Assembly: GCF_012275375.1 (NCBI RefSeq)
Contig: NZ_JAAZQJ010000004.1
Coordinates: 62,001 to 126,000 of the forward strand
Origin: Dyella sp. SG609
GTDB lineage: Bacteria; Pseudomonadota; Gammaproteobacteria; Xanthomonadales; Rhodanobacteraceae
Direction of reading: 5' to 3'
DNA: 64,000 bases
Made by a program: the position numbers and the translations under genes. The notes under the pieces were generated by a model. It did no database searches. It worked only from the letters and a program-made list of their open reading frames with translations, and was not told the DNA's origin. This document shows positions 8,587-30,304 of the stretch, one piece after another; positions within the stretch are counted from its first letter, which is position 1, and each line of letters begins with the position of its first letter.

Positions 8587-8734
8587 GGCGGGGATGGCGC
8601 GGGAGGGAAGGGGCGCGGCGACTAGTCTAGCGACCCGGCAAGATAATGCGTGGCCCGGACGGCGAGTAGCGAGCGGTTTGCAAGGCTACCTTGAGGGAGC
8701 ATCAAGGCGCAGCCGGAATTACCCGGTTTTAGGC

Positions 8735-9613
8735 TCAGGCCGAAGCCCGCCGCCGTTCCCGCGCCAGCAGCTCGCGCTTGCGTTCGACACCCCAGCGCCA
8801 GCCGCCGATGGAACCGTCCTCGCGCACCACGCGGTGGCAGGGCACGATCAGGGCCACCCGGTTGTTGCCGCAGGCCTGGCCTACCGCGCGCGCCGCCTTC
8901 GGCAGGCCGATGTCCCCGGCGATCTCGCCATAACTGCGCGTGCTGCCGGCGGGGATGCGGGTGAGGGCGTCCCACACGCGCCACTGGAACGCGGTGGCGG
9001 CGATATCCAGCGGCGGCAGCTCCGGCGCGGCGGCGTCGGTCCAGCCCAGTTCGGAAGCGATGCGCGCGATCACCGCGTCCAGCCATTCCTCGCGGCCGGC
9101 GTCGACGCGTTCCAGTTCGGCCTGGGGGAATTCCTCGCGCAGGCGGCGCTGCAGGTCAGCGTCGCCGTCGCCCAGGGTCACCGAGCAGATGCCGCGCGCG
9201 GTGGTCGCCACCAGCAGGCGGCCCAGCGGGGTGTCGGTGGTGGTGTAGCGGATGCTGGCGCCGAGGCCGCCGGCGCGGTAGCTGGCCGGGGTCATGCCGA
9301 GCAGGCGGTTGCTGTGCTCATAGACGCGGCTGCCGGAGCCGAAGCCGGCGTCGTAGACCGCGTCGGTCACCGCCGCGCCGTCGCGCAGCGAGGCCTTGAA
9401 CTGGCCGAAGCGGCGGGCGCGGTGGTATTCGGCCGGACTCATGCCATAGCGGCGGCGGAACGCGCGCTGCAGATAAGTGGGGCTCAAGCCCGCGGCTTCG
9501 GCCAGGGTGTCCAGGCTGGGCGCCTGCTCGGCGTCCTCGATCAGCGCACGCGCGCGTTCGAGCGCGGCTTCGGTGCCCTGGCGGTGGTTCATGGGAGTGG
9601 TGCGGATGTCCAT
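8735..9613 (-). CDS. AraC-type regulator fused to methylated-DNA-protein cysteine methyltransferase (Ada-like, lacks N-Ada)
   Basis: Of the 292 residues, about 15-115 are an AraC helix-turn-helix domain (SLDTLAEAAGLSPTYLQRAF, then VTDAVYDAGFGSGSRVYE). Residues 120-285 are a methylguanine methyltransferase with the acceptor motif PCHRVV; the reactive cysteine is about residue 259, preceded by GNNRVALI. This matches the C-terminal two thirds of E. coli Ada. The N-terminal Cys4-zinc domain that senses methylphosphotriesters is absent, so the classical switch to activator cannot operate in the usual way. It should repair O6-alkylguanine in a suicide reaction and may bind DNA. An internal ATG at 9590-9592 is an alternative start. 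Confidence 0.9.
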   Translation of the reverse strand: MDIRTTPMNHRQGTEAALERARALIEDAEQAPSLDTLAEAAGLSPTYLQRAFRRRYGMSPAEYHRARRFGQFKASLRDGAAVTDAVYDAGFGSGSRVYEHSNRLLGMTPASYRAGGLGASIRYTTTDTPLGRLLVATTARGICSVTLGDGDADLQRRLREEFPQAELERVDAGREEWLDAVIARIASELGWTDAAAPELPPLDIAATAFQWRVWDALTRIPAGSTRSYGEIAGDIGLPKAARAVGQACGNNRVALIVPCHRVVREDGSIGGWRWGVERKRELLARERRRASA

Positions 9614-9670
9614 GCCATCAGGCTAGCCATCCGGCATGGGCGGGACTATCCGCTTCTTGCGCGAACGCGC

Positions 9671-9952
9671 TCAGCGCGCGGCGTGGTGGTGCGACTGGTG
9701 CAGCACCACGAACTCGCCTTCCAGCACTTCCGGCTGGTGCGTGCCGGCGGCGCGCGGCGCCGCGGCGGAGGCATTACTCTTGCGGGTCCAGTGGCGCAGG
9801 GCCAGCCACAGGCCGCCACCGACCAGCAGCACGCCGGCCACGACCAGACCGAACACCAGCAGCACGCCCACCAGCGCCACGCCGACCAGCAGCGACAGGG
9901 CACGGACCAGCGGGTGGCGGGAACGACGCGGAGACGGCAGCGTGAAGCGCAT
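9671..9952 (-). CDS. Small membrane protein of unknown function
   Basis: This 93-residue protein has a basic N-terminus (about 1-14), then one long or two closely spaced hydrophobic segments (about 15-52, LVRALSLLVGVALVGVLLV and a second Leu/Val/Gly run). A polar C-terminal tail ends in a stretch with EVLEGEFVVLHQSHHH. The acidic-then-hydrophobic LEGEFVVL motif and the His-rich end look conserved rather than random, but I do not recognise the family. There is no clear ribosome-binding site before the ATG at 9950-9952. It is divergent from the Rieske gene, 78 bases apart. Confidence 0.6.
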   Translation of the reverse strand: MRFTLPSPRRSRHPLVRALSLLVGVALVGVLLVFGLVVAGVLLVGGGLWLALRHWTRKSNASAAAPRAAGTHQPEVLEGEFVVLHQSHHHAAR

Positions 9953-10030
9953 GTGTTAAAAATCCGTGTGGTAAAATCAATGACTTACGTGCGTAACGAT
10001 GGGGCTTTCACCCCCGAGAGACAAGTGCCG

Positions 10031-10372
10031 ATGGATACAGCCACCCCCGCCCAGCCACTCTGCCGCCTCGACGAAATTATCGACGGCGAAGCGATCGCCG
10101 TCGACGCCGCGCTGCCCGAGGGGGAAGAAAGCCTGATCGTGGTGCGCCACGGCGGCGCCGCGCAGGCCTATCTCAATATCTGCCCGCATGCGGGGCGCCG
10201 GCTGGACTGGGCGCCGGGCAAGTTCCTGATCCGCGACGGCGTGCTGGTCTGCGCCGCGCATGGCGCCAGCTTTAATACCGCCGACGGCCTGTGCATCGGC
10301 GGCCCCTGCCGCGGCGAGCACCTGCACGCGGTGGCGGTGGAGGTGGTGGACGGCGAAGTGCGCCTCGGCTGA
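10031..10372 (+). CDS. Small Rieske [2Fe-2S] domain protein
   Basis: This 113-residue protein is essentially one Rieske domain. The cluster ligands are visible as CPH (C51, H53) and CAAH (C74, H77), with the GASFN turn after the second pair and a third conserved cysteine at about 88. Length and spacing fit soluble Rieske ferredoxins that pass electrons to oxygenases or reductases, or the small NirD-like subunits. No oxygenase or reductase gene is adjacent, so the partner is unknown. It is convergent with the SLC13 gene, with only one base between the two stop codons. Confidence 0.88.
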   Translation: MDTATPAQPLCRLDEIIDGEAIAVDAALPEGEESLIVVRHGGAAQAYLNICPHAGRRLDWAPGKFLIRDGVLVCAAHGASFNTADGLCIGGPCRGEHLHAVAVEVVDGEVRLG

Positions 10373-10373
10373 C

Positions 10374-12215
10374 TCAACGGAACATCAGGTTGATCGCCAC
10401 CAGGGTGATCACCAGCACCATCGCGGTCAGCGGCAGGCCCACGCGCAGGAAGTCCTTGCCGCGGTAGCCGCCGGGGCCGGCCACCATCATCAGGGCGGGG
10501 TGGCCGGAGGTGAGCAGGAAGGTGTTGGACGAGGACACCGCCACGATCAGCGCATACGCCGACGGGTTGCCGCCGGTGGCCACTGCCACGCTGATGGCGA
10601 TCGGCACCATCATCACCGTGGCGCCGACGTTGGACATCACCTGCGAGAACAGCAGGGTGAGGATCGCCAGGCACAGCTGCAGCACGTAAGGCGAGGCATT
10701 GCCCAGGTGCTGCAGCACCTCCTGCGCCAGCCACGCGGCGGTGCCGGTGGCGTCCATCGACCAGCCCAGCGGAATCAGGCAGGCGGTGACGAAGATGGTC
10801 TTCCAGTTGATCGCCTTGTAGGCCTCGTCCATGTTCAGCACGCCGGTGAGCAGCATGCCGATGGCGCCGGTCATCATCGCCACCGACAGATCCAGGTGGG
10901 TGAACAGGGCCAGGCACTTGGCCAGCACGAAGAAGCCCACCGCCTGCCAGATCTTGCCGGGGCGCTGTTCCTCCTTCGGGATGTCGGTGACCACGACCAG
11001 GTCCTTGTCCTCCGACGCCAGCCCCAGGTCGCGCCAGCTGCTGTGCAGCACCAGGGTGTCGCCGGCGCGCAGGCTCACCGCGCGCACGTCGTCGCGGAAC
11101 ACCTGGTCGCCGCGGTTCACCGCCAGCACCGAGATGCCGTAGCGCTTGCGCAGGCGCAGTTCGGCGACACTCTGCTTGATGAAGCGCGAGCTGGGCGGGA
11201 TCACCGCCTCCGAAATGCCGGCGCGGCTGGAATTGAACAGCTCGCCCAGCTGGCGCATGCGCGGCGACAGCTTGCACAGCTGGTTGTTGGCGAACTGGCT
11301 GAGCTGCTCGCGCGGACCCAGCACGCCCAGCACCGAGCCCACCCAGATCACGTGGTCCACCGGCGGCGCCATGCGCGCCTCGGTGCCGCTCTTGATCGCC
11401 AGGATCAGCGGCGCGCCGTACAGCTGTTCCACCTCGCCGATGCTCATGCCGACCAGCGGGCTTTCCGCGGTGACGGTGAGCTCGGCGGTCTCGCCCACGA
11501 TGCCGTAGGTCTCGGCGAAGTAGCTCTCGGTGCGGCCCGGCGTCACTTTCAGGCGCTCGTCCTCGCGCTCCGGCAGCAGCTTGGGCGTGAACAGGTAGAA
11601 GAACAGCACGCCGCACAGCGCCAGCACCAGGCCGACCGGGGTCACGCTGAACAGGCCGAACTTCGGAATGGTGTGCGCGCCCGGCGGCAGGTTGGCGTTC
11701 GCGCTCGCGATCAGGTCGTTGAGCACGATCAGCGGCGAGTTGGCGATCAGCGTGGTGTTGGTGGCGGTGAGGATGCAGAACGCCATCGGCAGCAGCAGGC
11801 GCGACAGCGGCACGCCGGTGCGCGCGGCCAGGCGGCTGGTGACCGGGATCATCAGCGCGGCCAGCGCCTGGCTGGGGATCACCGCGCTGAACAGGCTGGT
11901 GACCAGGTTGATCACCACGCCCAGGCGCGATTCCACGCCGCGCGCCATGCGCATCACGAAGTTGGCGGTCAGGCCGAGCACGCCGGCGCGGTCGAGCCCC
12001 GCGCCCATGATCATGATCGCGATGATGGCGATCACCGCGTTGCCGGCGAAGCCGTTGAACACGCGGTCGGAGGGAATCAGGCCGGTCAGGCCGATCACCA
12101 CCACCACCAGCAGCGCCACCACGTCGGCGCGGATCCACTCCAGCACCAGCATCAGCATGGTGAAGCCCACCAGCCCGAGCACCAGGATCATTTCGGGGGT
12201 GAGCGAGAGTCCCAC
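10374..12215 (-). CDS. SLC13-family permease with two RCK_C (TrkA-C) domains
   Basis: This 613-residue protein has an N-terminal permease half, two soluble RCK_C regulatory domains (about 200-290 and 300-390, the second with RKRYGISVLAVNRGDQV), and a C-terminal permease half ending with SNTFLLTSGHPALMMVAGPGGY. That last motif is typical of the divalent-anion:Na+ symporter (SLC13/ArsB-like) superfamily. Proteins with this layout take up sulfate, citrate, dicarboxylates or other anions. The start is a GTG at 12213-12215 with AGGAAG seven bases upstream; no ATG fits better. No substrate-linked gene is beside it. Confidence 0.88.
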   Translation of the reverse strand: MGLSLTPEMILVLGLVGFTMLMLVLEWIRADVVALLVVVVIGLTGLIPSDRVFNGFAGNAVIAIIAIMIMGAGLDRAGVLGLTANFVMRMARGVESRLGVVINLVTSLFSAVIPSQALAALMIPVTSRLAARTGVPLSRLLLPMAFCILTATNTTLIANSPLIVLNDLIASANANLPPGAHTIPKFGLFSVTPVGLVLALCGVLFFYLFTPKLLPEREDERLKVTPGRTESYFAETYGIVGETAELTVTAESPLVGMSIGEVEQLYGAPLILAIKSGTEARMAPPVDHVIWVGSVLGVLGPREQLSQFANNQLCKLSPRMRQLGELFNSSRAGISEAVIPPSSRFIKQSVAELRLRKRYGISVLAVNRGDQVFRDDVRAVSLRAGDTLVLHSSWRDLGLASEDKDLVVVTDIPKEEQRPGKIWQAVGFFVLAKCLALFTHLDLSVAMMTGAIGMLLTGVLNMDEAYKAINWKTIFVTACLIPLGWSMDATGTAAWLAQEVLQHLGNASPYVLQLCLAILTLLFSQVMSNVGATVMMVPIAISVAVATGGNPSAYALIVAVSSSNTFLLTSGHPALMMVAGPGGYRGKDFLRVGLPLTAMVLVITLVAINLMFR

Positions 12216-18634: not shown

Positions 18635-19321
18635 ATGCGCGTACTGGTGATCGAAGACAACAGCGATATCGCGACCAATATCGGCGATTACCTGGAGGAT
18701 CGCGGCCATGTGGTCGATTTCGCCGGCGACGGCGTGACCGGCCTGCACCTGGCGGTGGTGAACGAATTCGACGTGATCGTGCTGGACCTGACCCTGCCCG
18801 GCATGGACGGCCTGGACGTGGCGCGCAAGCTGCGCCACGAGGCGCACAAGCAGACCCCGGTGCTGATGCTCACCGCGCGCGATGCGCTGGAGCAGAAGCT
18901 CACCGGCTTCGAGTCCGGCGCCGACGACTACATGACCAAGCCGTTCGCCCTGCAGGAACTGGCCGCCCGCCTGGAAGTGCTGGCGCGCCGCGGCAAGGGC
19001 CCGCAGAGCCGCGTGCTGAAGGTGGCCGACCTCACCTACAACCTGGACACGCTCACCGTCACCCGCGACAGCAAGTCGATCCAGCTCAACCCGATCGGCC
19101 TGAAGCTATTACAGGCGCTGATGGAAGCCAGCCCTTCGGTGGTCACCCGCCAGGATCTGGAACAGCGCGTGTGGGGCGAGGAACTGCCCGACAGCGACAG
19201 CCTGCGCGTGCATATCCACGGACTGCGCGCGGCGATCGACAAACCATTTGACAAGCCGCTGATCCACACGCGGCACGGTATCGGATATCGCATGGTCGAC
19301 CCGGATGCGGTCCAGACGTAA
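18635..19321 (+). CDS. OmpR-family response regulator
   Basis: The 228 residues form a receiver domain (1-115) and an OmpR/PhoB winged helix (about 125-222). The acidic pocket is E8-D9, the phosphoacceptor is D51 in VIVLDLTLPGMDG, the switch threonine is in LMLTARDALE, and the conserved lysine is in DDYMTKPFAL. GGAG precedes the ATG at six bases. It overlaps the histidine kinase gene by 17 bases, so the two form a pair. The receiver sequence is closer in character to the ColR/VgrR-type regulators of Xanthomonas than to PhoP, but I do not assign a name. Targets are unknown. Confidence 0.93.
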   Translation: MRVLVIEDNSDIATNIGDYLEDRGHVVDFAGDGVTGLHLAVVNEFDVIVLDLTLPGMDGLDVARKLRHEAHKQTPVLMLTARDALEQKLTGFESGADDYMTKPFALQELAARLEVLARRGKGPQSRVLKVADLTYNLDTLTVTRDSKSIQLNPIGLKLLQALMEASPSVVTRQDLEQRVWGEELPDSDSLRVHIHGLRAAIDKPFDKPLIHTRHGIGYRMVDPDAVQT

Positions 19322-20588
19322 GCTTCGTTTTCGCCTGGTCCTGAGCTTCGCGCTGTTCGGGTTCGGCCTCAGCGCCCTGTTTGCCTTCGCGGCGCTCAAC
19401 ATCCGCGAGCGCGTCGAGAACCAGCTCATCACCTCGGCCTTGCAGGACGAGGTGGACCGCCTCAACGAACAAGTCCTGGCCCACCCGGACCGGGCGCCTG
19501 CGTTCGAAATCATCAAGGCGGCATCCTGGAGCGACCGCACCATCTATAAGGCGCCGCTGTCCTGGCAGGCCCTGGATACCGGCGTGCACGACCTGTTCGA
19601 GACCGGTCCGGACGGCAAGCCGCATCATTACAAGCTGGCCGTGCGCCGCAAGGACGGCGTGATCAGCTTCGTGCAGTACGACGTCTCGCGCGACGAACTG
19701 GGCAAGCGCCAGCTGCTCACCGCGGTGCTCGCCGCGGTTTTCCTGTTCGGCCTGATCTCGCTGGCGCTGGGGCTGTGGCTGTCGCGCAAGGTGCTCAAGC
19801 CGGTGAGCGAACTGGCCCAGCGCCTGCGCGAGTTCCGCAAGAACGGCAAGGCCGAGCCGCTGGCGCCGCATTTCGCTGACGACGAAGTGGGCGAGCTGGC
19901 GCTGGCGCTGGACGAATACGCCAACCGCCTGACCTCGATGGTGGAGCGCGACCGCGAATTCAATTCCGACGTGAGCCACGAGCTGCGCACGCCGCTGGCG
20001 GTGATCGCCAGCACCACGGAACTGCTGCAGGGTTCGCCCGACCTTACCGACAAGCTGCGCGAGCGCCTGAAGCGCATCGAGCGCGCCTCGCGCCAGGCCA
20101 CCGAACTGATCGAAGCGCTGCTGCTGCTGTCGCGCGCGGAACGCCGCGGCCCCACGCGCGGCGAGACCACCGAGGTGGCCAAGGTCGCCTCCGACGTGAT
20201 CGAAAGCCAGCGCCCGCAGATGCGCGACAAGCCGCTCAACGTGGAGCTGGTGGTGAACGGCGGCCTGAGCATCAATGCGCCGGCCTCGGTGCTGTCGGTC
20301 GCGCTCACCAACCTGATCGGCAACGCCATCAAGTACACGCTGGAAGGCCAGGTCACGGTGAAGGTCGAGAAGGACCGCATCGAAGTGATCGACACCGGCC
20401 CCGGCATCAAGCCGGAAGACGCCGAGCGCCTGTTCCAGCGCGGCGTGCGCGGCGAAGGCGCCGGCGGCAGCGGCGCGGGGCTGGGCCTGGCGATCGTGCG
20501 GCGCTTGTGCGAGCTCTATGGCTGGGACGTGTCGATGCGTCCGCGGCCGGATACCAACGGGGCGATCGCCTGCATCGTGTTTCAGTGA
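19305..20588 (+). CDS. Sensor histidine kinase, HisKA/HATPase_c
   Basis: This 427-residue kinase has a membrane segment at about 11-31, a periplasmic sensor of about 105 residues, and a second segment at about 140-160. A HAMP linker follows, then the H-box DVSHELRTPLAV with the phospho-histidine near residue 225, the N-box LIGNAIKYT, and the G boxes DTGPGIKP and GAGLGLAIV. It starts inside the end of the response regulator gene. Its sensor domain has no motif I can match to a ligand. A strong hairpin follows the stop codon directly. Confidence 0.93.
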   Translation: MRSRRKLRFRLVLSFALFGFGLSALFAFAALNIRERVENQLITSALQDEVDRLNEQVLAHPDRAPAFEIIKAASWSDRTIYKAPLSWQALDTGVHDLFETGPDGKPHHYKLAVRRKDGVISFVQYDVSRDELGKRQLLTAVLAAVFLFGLISLALGLWLSRKVLKPVSELAQRLREFRKNGKAEPLAPHFADDEVGELALALDEYANRLTSMVERDREFNSDVSHELRTPLAVIASTTELLQGSPDLTDKLRERLKRIERASRQATELIEALLLLSRAERRGPTRGETTEVAKVASDVIESQRPQMRDKPLNVELVVNGGLSINAPASVLSVALTNLIGNAIKYTLEGQVTVKVEKDRIEVIDTGPGIKPEDAERLFQRGVRGEGAGGSGAGLGLAIVRRLCELYGWDVSMRPRPDTNGAIACIVFQ

Positions 20589-21193: not shown

Positions 21194-24100
21194 ATGAGCG
21201 ATGTGCGCGACGACGTGCTGCTGCCTTTGACCACCGCCCAGCGCGGCCTGTGGATGAACCACAAGATCGGCGGCGATGGCGCGATCATGAATATCGCCGA
21301 GGCGGTGGATATCCGCGGCCCGGTGCAGCCGCCGCTGTTCCGCCAGGCGCTGTACCGCCTCGTCTACGAGGCCGAGATGATGCGCGCCAACGTGATCGAG
21401 CGCGACGGCAAGCCGCTGCTGGTGGTGCGCCAGGTCTACGGCGGGCAGTTTCCCTATTTCGACATGAGCGCCGAAGCCGATCCGCGCGCGGCCGCCGAGG
21501 CGTGGATGCACGAGGAGTACTCGCGCAACCCGGACCTCGAACACGACCCGCTGTGGGTCAGCGTGCTGTTCAAGCTCGCCGACGACCACTACGTCTGGTA
21601 CCAGCGCGCGCACCACATCGTGCTGGATGGCTACGGCGGCGGCCTGCTCGCGCGGCGCCTGGCCGAGCTGTACACCGCCCTGGTGCGGGGCAGCGAGCCG
21701 CCGCCGTGCGAGTTCGCGCCCGCCGCCACCGCCAGTGCACTGGAAAGCGCGTATCGCGAATCGGACCGCTTCCGCCGCGACCGCGACTACTGGAAGGAAC
21801 TGCTGGCCGACCTGCCCGAGGCGGTGACGCTGTCGCGCCGCCAGCATCGCCCCGGCCTGGCCGACCGCCTGTGCCGCAGCACGGCGATCCTGCCGCCGGA
21901 AACCTCGCGCCGCCTGGCCGAACTGGGCAAGGCCACCGGCGCCAGCCTGCCGCAGGTGCTGATCGGCCTGGTCGCGGCGTATTACCACCGCGTCACCGGT
22001 GCGGAAGACCTGGTGTTCGGCATGCCGGTGACGGCGCGGCTCAATGCCGAGGCGCGCCGCATGCCGGGCATCTTCGCCAACGTGGTGCCGATCCGCCTGC
22101 AGTTCGCCGCGGAGCTCACCGCCGGCGGCCTGTTCGAACAGGTCTCCCGCGCGGTGCGGCAGACGCTGCGCCATCAGCAGTACCGCTACGAAGACCTGCG
22201 CCGCGACCTGGGCCTGGTCGGGCAGGGCCGTGCCGTGGCCTGGCTGGGCATCAATATCGAGCCGTTCGATTACCAGCTCGATTTCGCCGGCGCGGGTACG
22301 TCCTCGCACAACATGTCCAACAGTTCGGCGGAAGACCTGATGGTCTTCGTCTACGACCGCGGCACCGATGCCGGCCTGCGCATCGACCTCGACGCCAACC
22401 CGCTGCTGTACGACATGGACGAACTGGACGAGCACCGCCGCCGCCTGTGCCGCCTGATCGACGGCGTGCTGGCCGAACCGGAGGCGCGCCTGCGCGACAT
22501 CGACCTGCTCGGCGACGAAGAACGCCACCGCCTGCTGGTGGCCTGGAACGACACCGCCGCGCCGATCGAACTGAGCGGCCTGCCCGCGCACGTGGCGCAG
22601 CAGGCGGCGCTGCGGCCGGAGGCGCCGGCGGTGATCGCGGGCGACACCGTGCTGAGCTACCGCGAGCTGCACCGGCGCAGCGTGGCGCAGGCGCGGCAGC
22701 TGATCGACGACGGCATCGCGCCCGGCGACATCGTGGCCGTGGCGCTGCCGCGCAACGAGCAGCTGCTGATCGTGCTGCTGGCGATCATGCGCACCGGCGC
22801 CACGTATCTGCCGATCGATCCGGACGGCCCGGCCGAGCGCATCGCGCTGCTGCTGGACGATGCCGCGCCGATCGCGCTGATCGCCACCCGCGCCATCCAC
22901 GAGCGCCTGCCCATGGGCGGCGGCATGCAGCTGCTGCCGGAACAGCTGGACGCGCGCGCGCTGGAAGCCGTGCACGAGCCGGACCTGAGCCATCCCGACG
23001 GCGTTGCCTACGTGCTCTACACCTCCGGTTCCACCGGTCGCCCCAAGGGCGTGGAAGTCACCCACCGCAATCTCGCCAACTTCCTGCAGGGCATGGCGCG
23101 CCTGCTGGAACCCGTACCCGGCCATCGCTTCCTTGCCGTTACCACGGTGATCTTCGATATCGCGGGGCTGGAGCTGTACCTGCCGCTCACCGCCGGCGCC
23201 TGCGTGGTGATGGCCGGCAGCGGCGCCGCGCAGCAGCCGGTGGAACTGGCGCGGCTGATCCGCGCCAGCGGCGTCACCCATGTGCAGGCGACGCCGTCGC
23301 TGTGGCGCATCCTGCTGGGCAGCCCGGAAACCAGGCTGGACGAAGTGCATGCCATGGTGGGCGGCGAAGCGCTGGGTGCGGAACTCGCCGCGCGGCTCAA
23401 GGCCGCGGCGGCGCGGGTGACGCAGTTCTATGGCCCCACCGAAACCACGGTGTGGTCCACCGCTTACGAGCTGGAAGTGATCGGCTCCGGCATTCCGCCG
23501 ATCGGCCGCCCCATCCTCAACACGCGTCTGTACGTGCTCGATGCCGCGCGGCAGCCGGTGGTGACCGGCGCGATCGGCGAGCTGTACATCGGCGGTGCGG
23601 GCGTGGCCAAGGGCTATCTGCATCGCCCGCAGCTCACCGAGGAACGCTTCCCGGCCGACCCCTTCGCTGCCGACGGCAGCCGCATGTACGCCACCGGCGA
23701 CCTGGTGCGCTGGCGCGACGACGGCTTGCTGGAATTCATCGGGCGCGCCGACAGCCAGGTGAAGATCCGCGGCCATCGTATCGAGCTGGGCGAGGTCGAG
23801 AACCTGCTGGCCCAGCACGCCGGCGTCGCCGCTGCGGCGGTCACCACGTTCCGCGATGCGAACGGCAGTCTCGCCGTGGCCGCCTATGTGGTGCCGCGCG
23901 AGCCCGCCGCCGTCGATTCCGACCAGCTGCGCATGTTCCTGGCGCGCCGCCTGCCGGAGCCCGCGCTGCCGTCCAGCTTCACCTTGCTGGACGCGCTGCC
24001 GCTGACGCCGAACGGCAAGCTGGACCGCCGCGCGCTGCCGGCGCCGGACCGCATTGCGCGCGCCGCGTTCGTGGAACCGTCCACGCCGGTCGAACGCAAG

Positions 24101-25222
24101 CTGGCGGAACTGTGGCAGCGCCTGCTGCGCATCGAACGCGTCGGCCTGCACGACAACTTCTTCGAGCTCGGCGGCGATTCGCTCACCGCGGCGGAGATGG
24201 CGGTGGGCTTCCCCGCGGAATTCGGCGTGGAGCTGCCGCTGGGCAGCCTGTTCGAAGCGCCGACGGTGGCCAACCTGGCGGCCTTCGTCGACCGCCTCGG
24301 CGGCGACAGCGACGATCCGCTCGGCGAGGTGATCGTGCTGCGCGCGCCGCCGCGGTTGCGCGAAGTGGGCAGGGCGCCGGCGCGGCCGCTGTTCTGCATC
24401 CATCCGATGATGGGCCTGAGCCTGGGCTTCTCCGCGCTGCTGCGGCATCTCGACCCGGCCGTCCCGGTGTACGGCCTGCAGTCGCGCGGCCTGCGCGGCG
24501 ACCTGCGCCTGCCAGGCAGCATCGAGGAAGTGGCGGCGGATTATCTGGCGCAGATCCGGCGCATCCAGCCCGAGGGGCCGTACCGCCTGGTCGGGCGTTC
24601 GATGGGCGGACTGATCGGCCACGCCATCGCCGAGCAGCTGCTGGCGATGGGCGAGCGCGTCGAGCTGCTGGCGATGATCGACAGCTATCTGTTCACCGCC
24701 GGCGAGCGTTCGCGCCCGCGCGAGGAAGCCAAAGAAGTACGCGCCGCGCTGAACTTCCTCGGCCTGCACCAGCACGCCGGCGAAGACGCGCCGCAGACGC
24801 TGAAGGAGCTGGCCTCGCTGCTGCTGCACAGCTACAACGCGCGCTCGATCCCGCTGGTGCAGGAGATCATCAAGAGCCACCCGCAATTCATCGAGCATCT
24901 GTTCGCGGTGATGCGCAACAACCTGGAGCTGGCGCGCCAGTACACGCCGCGCCGGATCAACGTGGACCTTCTGTTCTTCCACGCCACCGAGCGCGAGGGC
25001 GACCTGGGCGGCATCCTCGACCACCGCCCCTCGGCGTGGCGGCCCTTCATCGGCTGGCGCATCGAGGTGCAGGAGCTGGCCTGCCATCACGAGGCGGTGC
25101 TGGAGCCGGCGCCGGCGGAGACGATCGGCACCGTGCTGCGCCATCGCCTGTTCGATATCCCGGACGAGCGCGCGGGCGCCGCCACGCCGCTGGCGCCGCA
25201 GCCGGGGCTGGCCGCCGCATGA
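21194..25222 (+). CDS. Single-module nonribosomal peptide synthetase, C-A-T-TE (glycine-type A domain)
   Basis: The 1342 residues contain four domains. Condensation (about 8-440) has the active-site motif HHIVLDG at 140-146. Adenylation (about 460-960) has YTSGSTGRPKG near 609, YGPTETTVW, ATGDLVRW and NGKLDRRALP. A carrier domain has LGGDSL with the phosphopantetheine serine near 996. A type I thioesterase has GRSMGG with the nucleophile near 1136 and a C-terminal histidine in CHHEAV. The layout recalls EntF. By-eye alignment with GrsA gives the code D-I-L-Q-V-G-F-V-W-K, close to known glycine codes. AGGGGG precedes the ATG at 21194. It is the first gene of a five-gene coupled operon. It probably condenses an acyl or aminoacyl donor with glycine and releases the product. 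Confidence 0.9.
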   Translation: MSDVRDDVLLPLTTAQRGLWMNHKIGGDGAIMNIAEAVDIRGPVQPPLFRQALYRLVYEAEMMRANVIERDGKPLLVVRQVYGGQFPYFDMSAEADPRAAAEAWMHEEYSRNPDLEHDPLWVSVLFKLADDHYVWYQRAHHIVLDGYGGGLLARRLAELYTALVRGSEPPPCEFAPAATASALESAYRESDRFRRDRDYWKELLADLPEAVTLSRRQHRPGLADRLCRSTAILPPETSRRLAELGKATGASLPQVLIGLVAAYYHRVTGAEDLVFGMPVTARLNAEARRMPGIFANVVPIRLQFAAELTAGGLFEQVSRAVRQTLRHQQYRYEDLRRDLGLVGQGRAVAWLGINIEPFDYQLDFAGAGTSSHNMSNSSAEDLMVFVYDRGTDAGLRIDLDANPLLYDMDELDEHRRRLCRLIDGVLAEPEARLRDIDLLGDEERHRLLVAWNDTAAPIELSGLPAHVAQQAALRPEAPAVIAGDTVLSYRELHRRSVAQARQLIDDGIAPGDIVAVALPRNEQLLIVLLAIMRTGATYLPIDPDGPAERIALLLDDAAPIALIATRAIHERLPMGGGMQLLPEQLDARALEAVHEPDLSHPDGVAYVLYTSGSTGRPKGVEVTHRNLANFLQGMARLLEPVPGHRFLAVTTVIFDIAGLELYLPLTAGACVVMAGSGAAQQPVELARLIRASGVTHVQATPSLWRILLGSPETRLDEVHAMVGGEALGAELAARLKAAAARVTQFYGPTETTVWSTAYELEVIGSGIPPIGRPILNTRLYVLDAARQPVVTGAIGELYIGGAGVAKGYLHRPQLTEERFPADPFAADGSRMYATGDLVRWRDDGLLEFIGRADSQVKIRGHRIELGEVENLLAQHAGVAAAAVTTFRDANGSLAVAAYVVPREPAAVDSDQLRMFLARRLPEPALPSSFTLLDALPLTPNGKLDRRALPAPDRIARAAFVEPSTPVERKLAELWQRLLRIERVGLHDNFFELGGDSLTAAEMAVGFPAEFGVELPLGSLFEAPTVANLAAFVDRLGGDSDDPLGEVIVLRAPPRLREVGRAPARPLFCIHPMMGLSLGFSALLRHLDPAVPVYGLQSRGLRGDLRLPGSIEEVAADYLAQIRRIQPEGPYRLVGRSMGGLIGHAIAEQLLAMGERVELLAMIDSYLFTAGERSRPREEAKEVRAALNFLGLHQHAGEDAPQTLKELASLLLHSYNARSIPLVQEIIKSHPQFIEHLFAVMRNNLELARQYTPRRINVDLLFFHATEREGDLGGILDHRPSAWRPFIGWRIEVQELACHHEAVLEPAPAETIGTVLRHRLFDIPDERAGAATPLAPQPGLAAA

Positions 25223-26544
25223 GCGCGCCCAGGCCGATCGTCATCTTCACCATCGGCACGCAAGGCGACGTGCGGCCCTGCGTGGCGCTGGGGCAGGGGC
25301 TGCAGCGCGCGGGTTATCCGGTGCGCATCGCCACCAGCGGTAATTTCGAGCCGCTGGTGCGCGAAGCGGGGCTGGCATTCTTTCCGCTCACCGCCGATTT
25401 CCAGGCCATGCTGGAAGCCGACCGCAGCATCGCCGAGCAGGGCCTCAACCTGCGCGCGATGGCGCGCATCTTCCGTCAGCGCTATGCGCTGTGGGCCGAG
25501 CGCTGGGCCGAGGAAGGCATGGCGGCGAGCGAAGGCGCGGGCCTGCTGATCGGCGTGAGCAACAGCACCTTGCTGGCCAAGGCGCTGTCGGAGTGGCGCG
25601 GCGTGCCGTTCGCCATCGCGCGCCTGCAGCCGTTGACGCCCTCGCGCCTGCTGCCGCCGATGGTGCTGAGCGGTTCGCGCGACCGCCTGCCCGGCCCGGT
25701 GAGCCTGGCCGCGCATCATCTGCTGTGGTTGCTGGTGTGGCATGTGATGCGGCCGGCGATCAACGACATCGTGCGGCCGCGGCTGGGCCTGCCGCGCTAT
25801 CCCTGGCATGGGCCTTATCTGGGCCGCCATGCGCTGGACGAGAAGGTGATCAACGGCTTCAGCCGCTACGTGCTGCCGCGGCCGGCGGACTGGCCGGACA
25901 GCTCACAGGTTACCGGCTACTGGTTCTTCGATCCGCCGGCGTGGACGCCGCCGGCGGAACTTGCCGAGTTTCTGGCTGCCGGCCCCAAGCCGGTCTATAT
26001 CGGCTTCGGCAGCATGGTGAGCAGCCGCGCCGCCGAGTTCACCCGCATCGTGCTGGACGGCGTGCGCAAGAGCGGGCGCCGCGCGGTGCTGGCGGCGGGC
26101 TGGGGCGGGCTGGAGATCGCCGAAGGCGCGCTGGACGAGCAGATCTATGGCCTGCGCCAGGCACCGCACGACTGGCTGTTTCCGCGCATGGCCGGCGCCG
26201 TGCATCACGGCGGCGCGGGCACTACGGCAGCGGCGGCGCGCGCCGGCATTCCGGCCGCGGTGGTGCCGTTCTACGGCGACCAGCCGTTCTGGGCGCGCTG
26301 CCTGCAGCGCCGCGGCGTGGCGCCCGCCGCGCTGGACCGGCGCAGCTTGAACGCCGATGCGCTGGCCGCGGCGCTCACCGCGATGGCGCAGCCGGAGATG
26401 CTGCGCGAGGCCGAAGCGCTGGGCCGCGCGATCCGCGCCGAGGACGGCGTGGGCGAAGCGCTGCGGCATCTGCGGCGCTGGGGCTTGCTGGAGGAAGTTG
26501 AAATGATGGAGGCCGCGATGGAACCGCAGCGGAGCGTGGCATGA
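25219..26544 (+). CDS. Glycosyltransferase family 1 (UGT/RhlB-like)
   Basis: This 441-residue GT-B enzyme starts PIVIFTIGTQGDVRPCVALG, the acceptor-binding opening of the UDP-glucuronosyl/sterol/macrolide glycosyltransferase superfamily. It ends with the nucleotide-sugar site MAGAVHHGGAGTTAAAARAGIP and the donor motif VVPFYGDQPFWA. RhlB, which makes rhamnolipids, and antibiotic Gtf enzymes share this fold. Its start codon overlaps the NRPS stop (ATGA at 25219-25222), so it should act on the NRPS product or on a lipid precursor. The donor sugar cannot be read with confidence. Confidence 0.9.
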   Translation: MSAPRPIVIFTIGTQGDVRPCVALGQGLQRAGYPVRIATSGNFEPLVREAGLAFFPLTADFQAMLEADRSIAEQGLNLRAMARIFRQRYALWAERWAEEGMAASEGAGLLIGVSNSTLLAKALSEWRGVPFAIARLQPLTPSRLLPPMVLSGSRDRLPGPVSLAAHHLLWLLVWHVMRPAINDIVRPRLGLPRYPWHGPYLGRHALDEKVINGFSRYVLPRPADWPDSSQVTGYWFFDPPAWTPPAELAEFLAAGPKPVYIGFGSMVSSRAAEFTRIVLDGVRKSGRRAVLAAGWGGLEIAEGALDEQIYGLRQAPHDWLFPRMAGAVHHGGAGTTAAAARAGIPAAVVPFYGDQPFWARCLQRRGVAPAALDRRSLNADALAAALTAMAQPEMLREAEALGRAIRAEDGVGEALRHLRRWGLLEEVEMMEAAMEPQRSVA

Positions 26545-27875
26545 GCGCGCGCAGGCCATTCGCGCTGTTCGAGCGCGGCATGTATCTGGACGGCCAGCGC
26601 GCGGTGGCGCTGGTGCTGCCCGCCACGCTGTCCGGCACGCTCGACGAACCGCGCCTGCGCCTGGCGCTGGAGCGCGTGCAGGCGCGGCATGCCGTGCTGC
26701 AAAGCCTGGTGGAGCACGACGCCGATGGACGTCCGTGGTTCGTGCAGCAGGACGCGCCCCCGCCGATCGCGCTGCGCATCGTCGATCGGCAGGGCGATGA
26801 CGACTGGCAGGAGCAGGCGCGGCTGGAATGCGAGCGCCTGTTCGACGGCAGGCGCGAGCCGCTGATCCGCATGATCTGGCTGCGCGGCGCCGGGCGCAGC
26901 GATCTGCTGCTGAGCTGCCATCACTGCATCTGCGACGGGTTGTCGGCGGTGAATCTGCTGCGCGACATCCTGACCGTGTGCGGCCGCCCCGACGCCAGGC
27001 TGGGGCCGCGCTTCGAACTGCAGGGCGGCGCCGACGTGGTGCCGCCCGAAGCCCTGCGTAATCGCTGGCTGCAGCGGCGCGCGCGCCTGAAGGCCGCGCT
27101 GTTCGGCGCCTTTATCCGCACGCGGCGCATCGGCGCGCCGGTGAGCTACGGCGCCGCCTATACGCAGCGCTGGTCGATCGAACCGGCGGCGGTGCAGGCG
27201 CTGGTGCGGCGGGCGAAGGACGCCGAGGTCGGCGTGTTCGCGGCGCTGTGCACGGCTTTCATGCTGGCCTGCTGGTCGGTGCGCGGCGTCCGCGGCGTGG
27301 AGAAGTTCGTCGCGCCGGTCGATGCGCGCCGCTATCTGCCGGCGCTGCAGGGTGGTGCCCTGTTCACCATGGCGCCGACGGTGCGGCTGACCTTCGGCGG
27401 GCGCAAGTCGCGCGATGCGGATTTCTGGGTGCTGGCGCGTGCTTTGCACGAGGATATGCGGCGGCAGATCGACCGCCTCGGGCCGGCGGTCCACGAACAG
27501 TTGCTGGGACTCGAACGGCTGCATCCGCTATTCGACCAGCTGCTCGCGTGGTCGCGCTCGAAGCGCAGTGGCGGCGGTGTGTCGCTTTCTTACCTGGGCC
27601 GCCTCGACGACTCCTCGCGCGACGAAGGCGGCGTCCGCCTGGAAGCGATCCACGCGCCCTCGGCCCTGCTCGAACCCACGCCGGCCAGCCTGATCACCAT
27701 CGTCGGTTTCGCCGAACGCCTGGACCTGGCCTTGATCTCGGACGAAAGCTCGTTGCCCAGCGCGCAGGCCGCGCAGATCCGCCAGCTGGCGATGGAGCTG
27801 CTGCAGGCGGCTTCGGCCTTGCCGGCGCCGGCCGCGGCCGGCTTGTCCGCTCCCGTACCCGTGGAAAGCGTATGA
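26541..27875 (+). CDS. Condensation-domain-like (PapA/WS-DGAT-type) acyltransferase 1
   Basis: This 444-residue, stand-alone member of the CoA-dependent acyltransferase/condensation superfamily has the complete catalytic motif HHCICDG (HHxxxDG) at about residues 127-133. A solvent-channel DFGWG-like motif is not obvious. Such free-standing enzymes acylate sugars or alcohols from CoA or carrier-protein donors, as PapA proteins do in mycobacterial glycolipids. It overlaps the genes on both sides by four bases. I infer that it acylates the glycosylated product of the operon, but it could also be a peptide-bond-forming condensation enzyme. Confidence 0.82.
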   Translation: MSARRPFALFERGMYLDGQRAVALVLPATLSGTLDEPRLRLALERVQARHAVLQSLVEHDADGRPWFVQQDAPPPIALRIVDRQGDDDWQEQARLECERLFDGRREPLIRMIWLRGAGRSDLLLSCHHCICDGLSAVNLLRDILTVCGRPDARLGPRFELQGGADVVPPEALRNRWLQRRARLKAALFGAFIRTRRIGAPVSYGAAYTQRWSIEPAAVQALVRRAKDAEVGVFAALCTAFMLACWSVRGVRGVEKFVAPVDARRYLPALQGGALFTMAPTVRLTFGGRKSRDADFWVLARALHEDMRRQIDRLGPAVHEQLLGLERLHPLFDQLLAWSRSKRSGGGVSLSYLGRLDDSSRDEGGVRLEAIHAPSALLEPTPASLITIVGFAERLDLALISDESSLPSAQAAQIRQLAMELLQAASALPAPAAAGLSAPVPVESV

Positions 27876-28849
27876 AAAGCTATGGCGTGATCTTCGTGCT
27901 GTACCACCCCAGCGAGGCCTTCCTGCGCCATCTGGAGAAAGCGGCGGCGTCGGGGCAGAACGTGGTGGCAATCGACAACTCGCCGCAGCCGGATCTGGCG
28001 CTGTACGACGTGCTGCAGCGGCAGGGCTGCACGGTGCTGCACAACGCCAATCGCGGCGGCCTGGCCGGCGCCTACAACCGCGGCGCGGAGCTGCTGCTCG
28101 AACGCGGCTGCGAGGTGATCTTCCTGCTCGATCAGGATTCGGATATCGGCGACGACTTTTTCGCCGCGATGATGCAGGCCTGCGAGCGCGAACCGGGCGA
28201 GGCTTTCGTCCTCGGGCCGAAGATCTACGAGATCAACCTGGAAAAGTTCATGGTGGTGATGCCGCCGGGACGGCGCTGGCCGAAGCCGCAGAAGATGCGC
28301 GAGCCGACGGAAGGCGTGTACGACACCTTGTTCGTGATCTCGTCCGGCTCGGCGATCTCGGCGCAGGCATACCGCCAGCTTGGCGCGTTCCGCGAGGATT
28401 TCTTTATCGAGTACATCGATATCGAATACGGCTTGCGTGCCAACACGCAGGGTGTGCCGGTGCGCATGAACGCGGCGGTGACGATGCGCCAGACCACCGG
28501 GCAGATCGAGCGCCACGGCCGCCTGTTCACCACCAACCATGCGGCGTGGCGCCGCTACTACGGCGCACGCAACGGCGTGTATACCTTGCGCTTGTATCGC
28601 GCGCACTGGGGGCTGCATTGGCTGGGCGGACTGCTCGCACTGCACCAGGCGTTCAACGTGCTGCTGTTCGAGCCGCAGAAGCTGCGCAAGGTGCTGGCGA
28701 TTGCCTGCGGCTACGTCGACGGGCGCCGCGGCCGGCTGGGCACCTTCGAAGACCTGCATCCGCGCATCGCCGCGTTCTGCAAGAAGGAGCCGGCGCGCAG
28801 CGGGGCGCTTGCCGGCGCTGCCACCGTCGCCACGGAGCAGACGCCATGA
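27872..28849 (+). CDS. Glycosyltransferase family 2 (rhamnosyltransferase-like)
   Basis: This 325-residue GT-A enzyme has the N-terminal nucleotide-sugar segment VIFVLYHPSEAFL, NANRGGLAGAYNRGAELLL, and the metal-binding LLDQDSDIG. Further on, FFIEYIDIEYGLRA is typical of RfbF/WbbL-like rhamnosyltransferases. A hydrophobic stretch near residues 248-270 may anchor it at the membrane. Start and stop codons overlap both neighbours (ATGA), placing it in the middle of the coupled operon. With the GT1 enzyme it implies a product carrying two sugars, or one of two alternative sugars. Confidence 0.88.
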   Translation: MKSYGVIFVLYHPSEAFLRHLEKAAASGQNVVAIDNSPQPDLALYDVLQRQGCTVLHNANRGGLAGAYNRGAELLLERGCEVIFLLDQDSDIGDDFFAAMMQACEREPGEAFVLGPKIYEINLEKFMVVMPPGRRWPKPQKMREPTEGVYDTLFVISSGSAISAQAYRQLGAFREDFFIEYIDIEYGLRANTQGVPVRMNAAVTMRQTTGQIERHGRLFTTNHAAWRRYYGARNGVYTLRLYRAHWGLHWLGGLLALHQAFNVLLFEPQKLRKVLAIACGYVDGRRGRLGTFEDLHPRIAAFCKKEPARSGALAGAATVATEQTP

Positions 28850-30135
28850 TGCGCAAGCTCACCACCATCGAGCGGCTGATCGACGGCAATATCACCTATC
28901 GCCTCACCATCGAAGGCGCGCTGCCGGTCGAACGCCTGCGCGCGGCGCTGGACCGCGTGCAGCGCAAGCATCCGGCGCTGCGCATGCTGCTGCGCGAGGA
29001 AAGCGACGGCTTGTACTACGCGCTGGACGCGGCCGGCCCGGTGCCGCTGCGCGTGGCGATCTGCACCTCGGAGCAGGTGCTGGCCGGGGAGATCGCGCGC
29101 GAGGAGGCCAGCGTCTTCGCGCCCGACGAACCGCTGCTGCGCGTGGCCTGGCTGCGCACGGCGCGCGGCGGCGTGCTGCTGATCACCACCGCGCACCGCA
29201 TCTGCGACGGCATGAGCATCCTCACCCTGGCGCGCGAACTGCTGGCCGGCCTGCACAGCGACGCGCCGCTGCTGCCGTATGCGCCGATCAGTCCGCTGGA
29301 CGTCGCCGCTCCGCCGGGCGGCCCGGAAGAACGCAGGCAGCGCATGGTCGCGGCGGTGATCAACGGGCTGATCGCGGCGATCCCGCCCTCGCGCCGGCCG
29401 CCGCGCCACGACACCTTGCGGCGGGAATGGCATGTGGATGCGGGGCTGACCGCGGTGCTCAAGCATCGCTGCCGGGTCGAGCAGGTGTCGATGCATGCGG
29501 CCTTGCTGGCGATCCTGGATCTGGCCTTGCAGTCGGCGCTGGGCAAGCGCGCGCCCACGCGCATCGACAATCCGATCGACGCGCGCCGCGGCCGGCTGGC
29601 GCAGCTGAAGGACGACATGCTGTTCTTCGGCGGCGGCAGCTTCAAGATCGAAGTGGGGTGCGAGCGCGGCGCGGACCTGTGGGAGCGGGCGCGCGACATC
29701 TATCGCGAGATGGCCGGCAAGATGGAGCAGGAACTGCTGGCGATTCCCGGCAAGTACCGCTTCTGCGAAATGCTGAAGCCGCCGTCGGAGCACAAGTTGA
29801 ACGCCATCGTGCGGCTGGGCGATGCGCTCAGCCGCAATGGCAACTGGAATCAGTTTTCCTTTTCCAACCTGGGGCCGATCGATCTGCTGGAGGCGCAGGC
29901 GCCGTTCCGGCTGGAGGATTTCACCTTGTCGGTGCGCTCCTTCGGCGTGCGTCCGCTGGGCCTGGTGGCGTTCGCGCTGCACGGTCGGCTGCGCTTCGTG
30001 TTCATCGGCGAGGAGCAGTGCATGAGCGCGGCGCAGGTGGATGCGCTGGAGCAGGCGTTCATGGGGGTGTTGCGGGAGCAGGCGGCGCATCGCAGGCGCG
30101 AGGTCGAGCCGGCGGTGACGTTGGCGGTCGACTGA
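28846..30135 (+). CDS. Condensation-domain-like acyltransferase 2 (first motif His replaced)
   Basis: This 429-residue protein belongs to the same superfamily as the enzyme at 26541 but is clearly diverged. The active-site region reads TAHRICDG at about 114-121, so the first His of HHxxxDG is Ala while the catalytic second His and Asp are kept. That arrangement is compatible with activity. The start is the ATG at 28846, overlapping the GT2 stop; a second ATG follows directly at 28849. It is the last gene of the operon and is followed 14 bases later by a large inverted repeat. It probably adds a second acyl group, or selects a different donor, in the same product. Confidence 0.82.
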   Translation: MMRKLTTIERLIDGNITYRLTIEGALPVERLRAALDRVQRKHPALRMLLREESDGLYYALDAAGPVPLRVAICTSEQVLAGEIAREEASVFAPDEPLLRVAWLRTARGGVLLITTAHRICDGMSILTLARELLAGLHSDAPLLPYAPISPLDVAAPPGGPEERRQRMVAAVINGLIAAIPPSRRPPRHDTLRREWHVDAGLTAVLKHRCRVEQVSMHAALLAILDLALQSALGKRAPTRIDNPIDARRGRLAQLKDDMLFFGGGSFKIEVGCERGADLWERARDIYREMAGKMEQELLAIPGKYRFCEMLKPPSEHKLNAIVRLGDALSRNGNWNQFSFSNLGPIDLLEAQAPFRLEDFTLSVRSFGVRPLGLVAFALHGRLRFVFIGEEQCMSAAQVDALEQAFMGVLREQAAHRRREVEPAVTLAVD

Positions 30136-30149
30136 TGCCTTGCCTATAG

Positions 30150-30274
30150 CGTCATTCCGGCGCAGGCCGGAATCCAGTAACGACAACATATGGATATGCG
30201 AAAGCGCTGACGTCCAGGCTTTCGCGACAACCGATCGATATCGTCACTGGATTCCGGCCTGCGCCGGAATGACG
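30150..30274. repeat. Large inverted repeat (ATTCCGGC-type intergenic element)
   Basis: A 29-base arm at 30150-30178, containing ATTCCGGCGCAGGCCGGAAT, is repeated exactly in inverse orientation at 30246-30274. Each arm is itself nearly palindromic. The 67 bases between hold further A/T-rich partial palindromes. It lies between the convergent NRPS operon and ilvE and could stop transcription from both sides. Elements of this look are common between genes in proteobacteria. Only this copy was seen in the window. Confidence 0.85.
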
Positions 30275-30304
30275 AGAGTGGGAAGTTGCGGCAGGGAACC
30301 GGTA

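Follow-up and report, generated by a model that had tools for sequence, protein, structure and literature searches.

An NRPS-glycosyltransferase-acyltransferase operon of Dyella and its relatives as a candidate source of acylated diglycosyl N-acylglycine lipids

Operon architecture and encoded enzymes

What would be made by an operon in which a one-module NRPS is followed by two glycosyltransferases and two free-standing acyltransferases, and has such a gene set been described before? Five intact open reading frames of this kind span positions 21194-30135 on the forward strand of the window, the whole 64,000 nucleotide stretch of the soil bacterium Dyella sp. SG609 (genome size 5.13 Mb) analysed here. 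They encode the NRPS (21194..25222, +), a GT1/GT28-like glycosyltransferase proposed to add sugar 1 (GT1; 25219..26544, +), a PapA-like acyltransferase (termed PapA; 26541..27875, +), an RhlC/rhamnosyltransferase-like GT2 glycosyltransferase proposed to add sugar 2 (GT2; 27872..28849, +) and a second PapA-like acyltransferase (termed PapB; 28846..30135, +). All five start with ATG (21194, 25219, 26541, 27872 and 28846) and the PapB stop codon ends at 30135. A preliminary description of the sequence had proposed the order C-A-T-TE NRPS, GT1, PapA-like enzyme, GT2, PapA-like enzyme, with a four-base ATGA overlap at every junction; the order is borne out by the reading frames and their Pfam domains, and the junction letters are ATGA at all four (4/4), including that at 25219 where the GT1 gene overlaps the 3' end of the NRPS gene. 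The four overlaps are also present in Dyella marensis, the nearest named relative for the operon genes (86-90% protein identity), and three other Dyella relatives retain ATGA at junctions 2 and 3 only. The overlaps are conserved less than gene order, which is kept well beyond the species; since different genera and two phyla share that order, the arrangement goes beyond chance.

Upstream of the operon lie a response regulator and a histidine kinase (18635-20588), and downstream, on the opposite strand, a class IV aminotransferase; genes of like length occupy the flanking places in several relatives. Promoter and terminator scans gave nothing above chance. Directly 3' of the operon is an inverted repeat with two 45-base arms (30139-30285 in the window), a dispersed REP-like element. 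Its exact 28-base core has 55 genomic copies, often paired in inverted orientation at a spacing of about 105 bases, against 0 in a reversed control.

The NRPS comprises, by Pfam, C, A, PCP and TE domains in one module, and its HHIVLDG, LGGDSL and GRSMG motifs and A-domain code are conserved in relatives. The ten-residue code, with positions taken from motifs and not from a structural alignment, is DILQMGFVWK. Relatives mostly carry DILQLGFVWK or DILQLGLIWK, the second of which we take to be a glycine code, and the window code reads as glycine-type; three clades have deviating codes (DILWLGLVLK, DVLQLALVYK and DIFQLTLVWK). The same genome holds another NRPS open frame, 10608 aa long, on contig C6 (~231749-235366). 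GT1 matches Pfam EryCIII-like_C, Glyco_transf_28 and UDPGT. GT2 has the Pfam GT2 domain, and its nearest family is the TIGR01556 rhamnosyltransferase, matched at 152.5 bits (152.8 in the genome scan), below the cut-off of 200.55; the genome carries RmlD, and rhamnose is a plausible GT2 sugar at this sub-cut-off score.

PapA and PapB match Pfam Condensation in their N-terminal part only. Their AlphaFold models (mean pLDDT 88 each) match condensation-fold PDB enzymes over the full length in Foldseek, and on these models both have the condensation/PapA fold. For each the top structural match is 8s6l (AzeD), with PapA5 (1q9j) within the top six. Like PapA5 and its kin they are free-standing condensation-fold proteins with a catalytic His and Asp, but they share only 15-18% identity with PapA5 (Foldseek TM about 0.6-0.7), match PapA5 family models partially and below cut-off, and have AzeD as the nearest solved structure instead. 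Both had been expected to be HHxxxDG enzymes. This is true of PapA, which has the full motif (HHCICDG), whereas PapB reads xHRICDG and has lost the first His; in 8/8 aligned PapB orthologues the motif is xHRICDG or xHRVCDG, and the complete HHxxxDG occurs in PapA alone. The catalytic His and Asp are nonetheless invariant in 31 PapB sequences (His117 and Asp121) and 25 PapA sequences.

Known systems and a proposed pathway

The preliminary description recognised no characterised cluster, which is too strong for the NRPS-GT1 core and, within the searchable literature, holds for the extended five-gene version. ‘Short NRPS’ genes (C-A-PCP-TE) overlapping a glycosyltransferase gene have been described in Xanthomonas albilineans, other Xanthomonas and Alcanivorax borkumensis, with a predicted product of the same type, in which amino acid, beta-hydroxy acid and sugar are joined (PMC3849588), and by its gene content the NRPS-GT1 core belongs to this kind. 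The X. albilineans pairs XALc_0364/0365 and XALc_1145/1144 have starter-type C domains, with a Gly signature in XALc_0364 and not in XALc_1145 (PMC3849588). As likened by the published description, they share with the Dyella operon the C-A-PCP-TE module, the overlapping glycosyltransferase gene and, in one pair, the Gly signature; they differ in being described as NRPS and glycosyltransferase alone, while PapA, GT2 and PapB follow in Dyella. Another family of the order has core-only loci that may be of the X. albilineans type and are 48-53% identical. The short NRPS/glycosyltransferase pair is still without an assigned function (PMC4584326).

In A. borkumensis the pair is ABO_1784 (NRPS) and ABO_1783 (glycosyltransferase), with the PPTase gene ABO_1782 alongside (PMC3849588). 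The likeness, again by description, is in a one-module NRPS, its domains in the same order, beside an RhlB-like glycosyltransferase. The differences are the adjacent PPTase gene, which was sought in the Dyella operon and is absent (two PPTase-family genes lie elsewhere in the genome), and the GT2 and acyltransferases, which are unreported in Alcanivorax. The A. borkumensis glycine-glucolipid contains four ester-linked 3-hydroxy acids, glucose and amide-linked glycine; according to PMC10710537, the full route to it is yet to be worked out. Its combination of glycine, 3-hydroxy acids and sugar matches the product type proposed for the Dyella operon, with one sugar there against two predicted sugar steps here. 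The rhamnolipid enzymes RhlB and RhlC (PMC6669457) offer a parallel for a GT1-type then a GT2-type enzyme acting on hydroxy fatty acids, but the Dyella operon has no RhlA-like gene, the NRPS would supply the acceptor and GT2 falls under the TIGR01556 cut-off.

For the PapA-GT2-PapB extension no description was found in the searchable literature, outside which most subscription journals lie. The Alcanivorax cluster was also sought in class samples: in one genome (G160) GT1 had only a weak match and the NRPS none, and six (G327, G330, G057, G230, G200 and G140) have NRPSs with no GT1 match nearby. The Rouxiella glucoselipid operon (PMC12299268), which encodes GNAT, PlsC-type and HAD proteins, is unrelated.

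With moderate confidence we favour an acylated diglycosyl N-(3-hydroxyacyl)glycine lipid as the product of the operon, which would make it a more elaborate relative of the glycine-glucolipid known from Alcanivorax. The analysis shows which genes are present, their intact motifs, the folds of both acyltransferases, a glycine-type code, the conserved order and the nested co-occurrence; from these we infer all of the chemistry, which sugars are used, where acylation takes place and where the product resides. The A domain would activate glycine, and fatty-acid metabolism would supply the 3-hydroxyacyl or oligo-3-hydroxyacyl chain with which a putative starter-type C domain would N-acylate this glycine; the TE domain would then free the acyl-glycine. 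GT1 would put sugar 1 on the acyl-chain hydroxyl, GT2 would attach sugar 2, plausibly rhamnose, PapB would O-acylate the diglycoside and PapA would attach a further acyl group. PapA-GT2-PapB look like an extra set through which another sugar and additional fatty acids are added. The operon has no exporter gene, and the product would most likely be an amphiphile associated with the envelope or surface.

The glycosylated, acylated glycine lipid first suggested from the sequence is well supported as a product type by the glycine-type A code, the two glycosyltransferases and the condensation/PapA folds, and finds further support in the known Alcanivorax lipid; in that earlier interpretation it is the product type that survives, and the absence of any characterised relative that does not. 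The PPTase genes and RmlD elsewhere in the genome also count for the pathway. Against it count the differing A codes of some clades, the sub-cut-off GT2 score, a Lysobacter locus that holds the four other genes without the NRPS, and three loci with GT2 and a penicillin-acylase family gene and neither PapA nor PapB.

Distribution, nested gene sets and gene trees

A scan of named genomes seeded with gene 5 (PapB) returned 26 loci, in Dyella, Lysobacter, Luteimonas and Acidobacteriota (Granulicella, Edaphobacter, Bryobacterales and other MAGs), most of which have the order NRPS-GT1-PapA-GT2-PapB. Among the Acidobacteriota there are duplications, with two PapA genes in L056, L058 and L061 and three PapB genes in L059, L062 and L069. 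Within the 26 loci, PapA is absent from L050 and L064, and a penicillin-acylase gene follows GT1 in L052, L063 and L072. As these loci were selected by gene 5, they are silent on how often gene 5 is absent.

A less biased scan, with the GT1 alignment, covered 398 genomes from the order and gave 41 orthologues at 490 bits or above; the neighbourhoods of 35 of the 41, a partly non-random choice, were read. The NRPS is present in 34/35 of these Xanthomonadales loci, in each adjoining the GT1 orthologue, GT2 in 16/35, PapB in 13/35 and PapA in 11/35. By gene set, 19/35 loci have NRPS-GT1 only (one of them, L125, on a contig that stops about 500 bases past GT1), 8/35 the full five genes, 3/35 NRPS-GT1-acylase-GT2 without PapA or PapB, 2/35 NRPS-GT1-GT2-PapB, 2/35 all six genes (the five plus the acylase) and 1/35, in Lysobacter antibioticus HS124, GT1-PapA-GT2-PapB without the NRPS. 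The sets are nested: PapB always occurs with GT2, PapA always occurs with GT2 and PapB, and GT2 without PapB is seen solely where the acylase gene is present. This nesting is the main argument for the proposed order of steps, although the counted loci are kin and few independent events lie behind the counts.

The genus-level group g18 shows one such difference between close relatives. D. acidisoli (L111) carries GT2-PapB between GT1 and a shared flank, which in L107, L108, L109, L112 and L118 comes directly after GT1. These sister loci have the A code DILWLGLVLK, as opposed to the glycine-type code of L111, and amino acid and decoration may change together in this group.

Several loci depart from the common plan. 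Six distinct loci (L044, at 8666-10870, L043, L052, L106, L110 and L119) carry an alternative insert, a penicillin-acylase family gene (PF01804) placed after GT1 and ahead of the later genes. In L. antibioticus HS124 (L117, also L055) no NRPS is found upstream of GT1, which may be a true loss or a fault of the draft assembly. In Granulicella sp. S190 (L073, ~9664-11181) an N-terminal fragment of an NRPS C domain continues directly into PapB sequence, with neither GT1 nor GT2 nearby, and the stretch looks like a decayed or fused remnant. In Dyella silvatica (L045, 9659-12298) a GT1-like gene and a PapA relative form a second pair apart from the first, near an eCIS_core-domain protein.

Gene trees, all rooted by midpoint only, give differing histories. 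In the NRPS tree the window's Dyella clade is sister to Acidobacteriota, within Xanthomonadales (support 100, by a quick method), and the GT1 tree again groups the two, with weak support (81/80); in the GT2 and PapB trees the Dyella clade is not beside Acidobacteriota. Acidobacteriota form one group in every gene tree. The simple reading would be transfer between Xanthomonadales and Acidobacteriota, and the operon may be a mosaic.

Alternative readings and wider meaning

The acyltransferases might build the lipid tail instead of decorating the sugars, with PapA and PapB esterifying 3-hydroxyacyl units together as an estolide and only the glycosyltransferases touching sugar. Condensation-fold enzymes can form esters, the Alcanivorax lipid contains four ester-linked 3-hydroxy acids, and PapA/PapB copy number differs among loci as it might in a system that sets chain length. 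However, 19 loci have NRPS-GT1 only and, as published, the Alcanivorax locus comprises NRPS, glycosyltransferase and PPTase, so that the tail is probably formed without PapA or PapB, and the strict dependence of PapB on GT2 in the 35 loci better fits acylation of the GT2 product; we regard an estolide role as unlikely. Somewhat less probable again is that the last three genes serve another glycoconjugate, such as an envelope polysaccharide, and are merely co-transcribed with NRPS-GT1. The many genomes in which NRPS-GT1 occurs by itself would be explained in this way, as would the disagreement of the trees, in which the NRPS joins the Dyella clade to Acidobacteriota strongly, GT1 weakly and GT2 and PapB not at all. 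Yet the order NRPS-GT1-(PapA)-GT2-PapB is held in Dyella, Lysobacter, Luteimonas and Acidobacteriota, and PapA or PapB occurs without GT2 in 0/35 loci. The best NCBIfam matches of the NRPS, MxcG (722 bits) and EntF (637 bits), would suggest an aryl-capped or siderophore-like product, but these scores are far under the cut-offs of 2300 and 2400, the A code is glycine-type, the operon has no aryl-acid gene and no gene of the genome reaches the cut-off for a DHB-AMP ligase. A siderophore is accordingly very improbable, and was rejected on the A code and the genome's lack of a DHB-AMP ligase over cut-off.

Our preferred reading of the operon, a source of glycosylated and acylated glycine lipids, leads to a broader and more tentative proposal, to which we give slightly less than even chances: that acylated diglycosyl N-acylglycines are a lipid class undescribed in the searchable literature, made in Xanthomonadales and Acidobacteriota by an operon that can be extended stepwise (NRPS-GT1, GT2, PapB, PapA, with the penicillin-acylase gene as an alternative insert) and that probably moved between phyla. 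The extended variant, PapA-GT2-PapB on NRPS-GT1, is new as far as the searchable literature goes, and its NRPS-GT1 core is known and little studied. The orphan Xanthomonas gene pair noted in 2013 is now tied to an extended family; there, the complexity of the product may be predictable from the genes present. The natural ladder of gene sets makes the order of biosynthetic steps testable, and the PapA/PapB group offers acyltransferases that could be studied as biosurfactant enzymes. Glycine glycolipids would be predicted to occur in soil Acidobacteriota.
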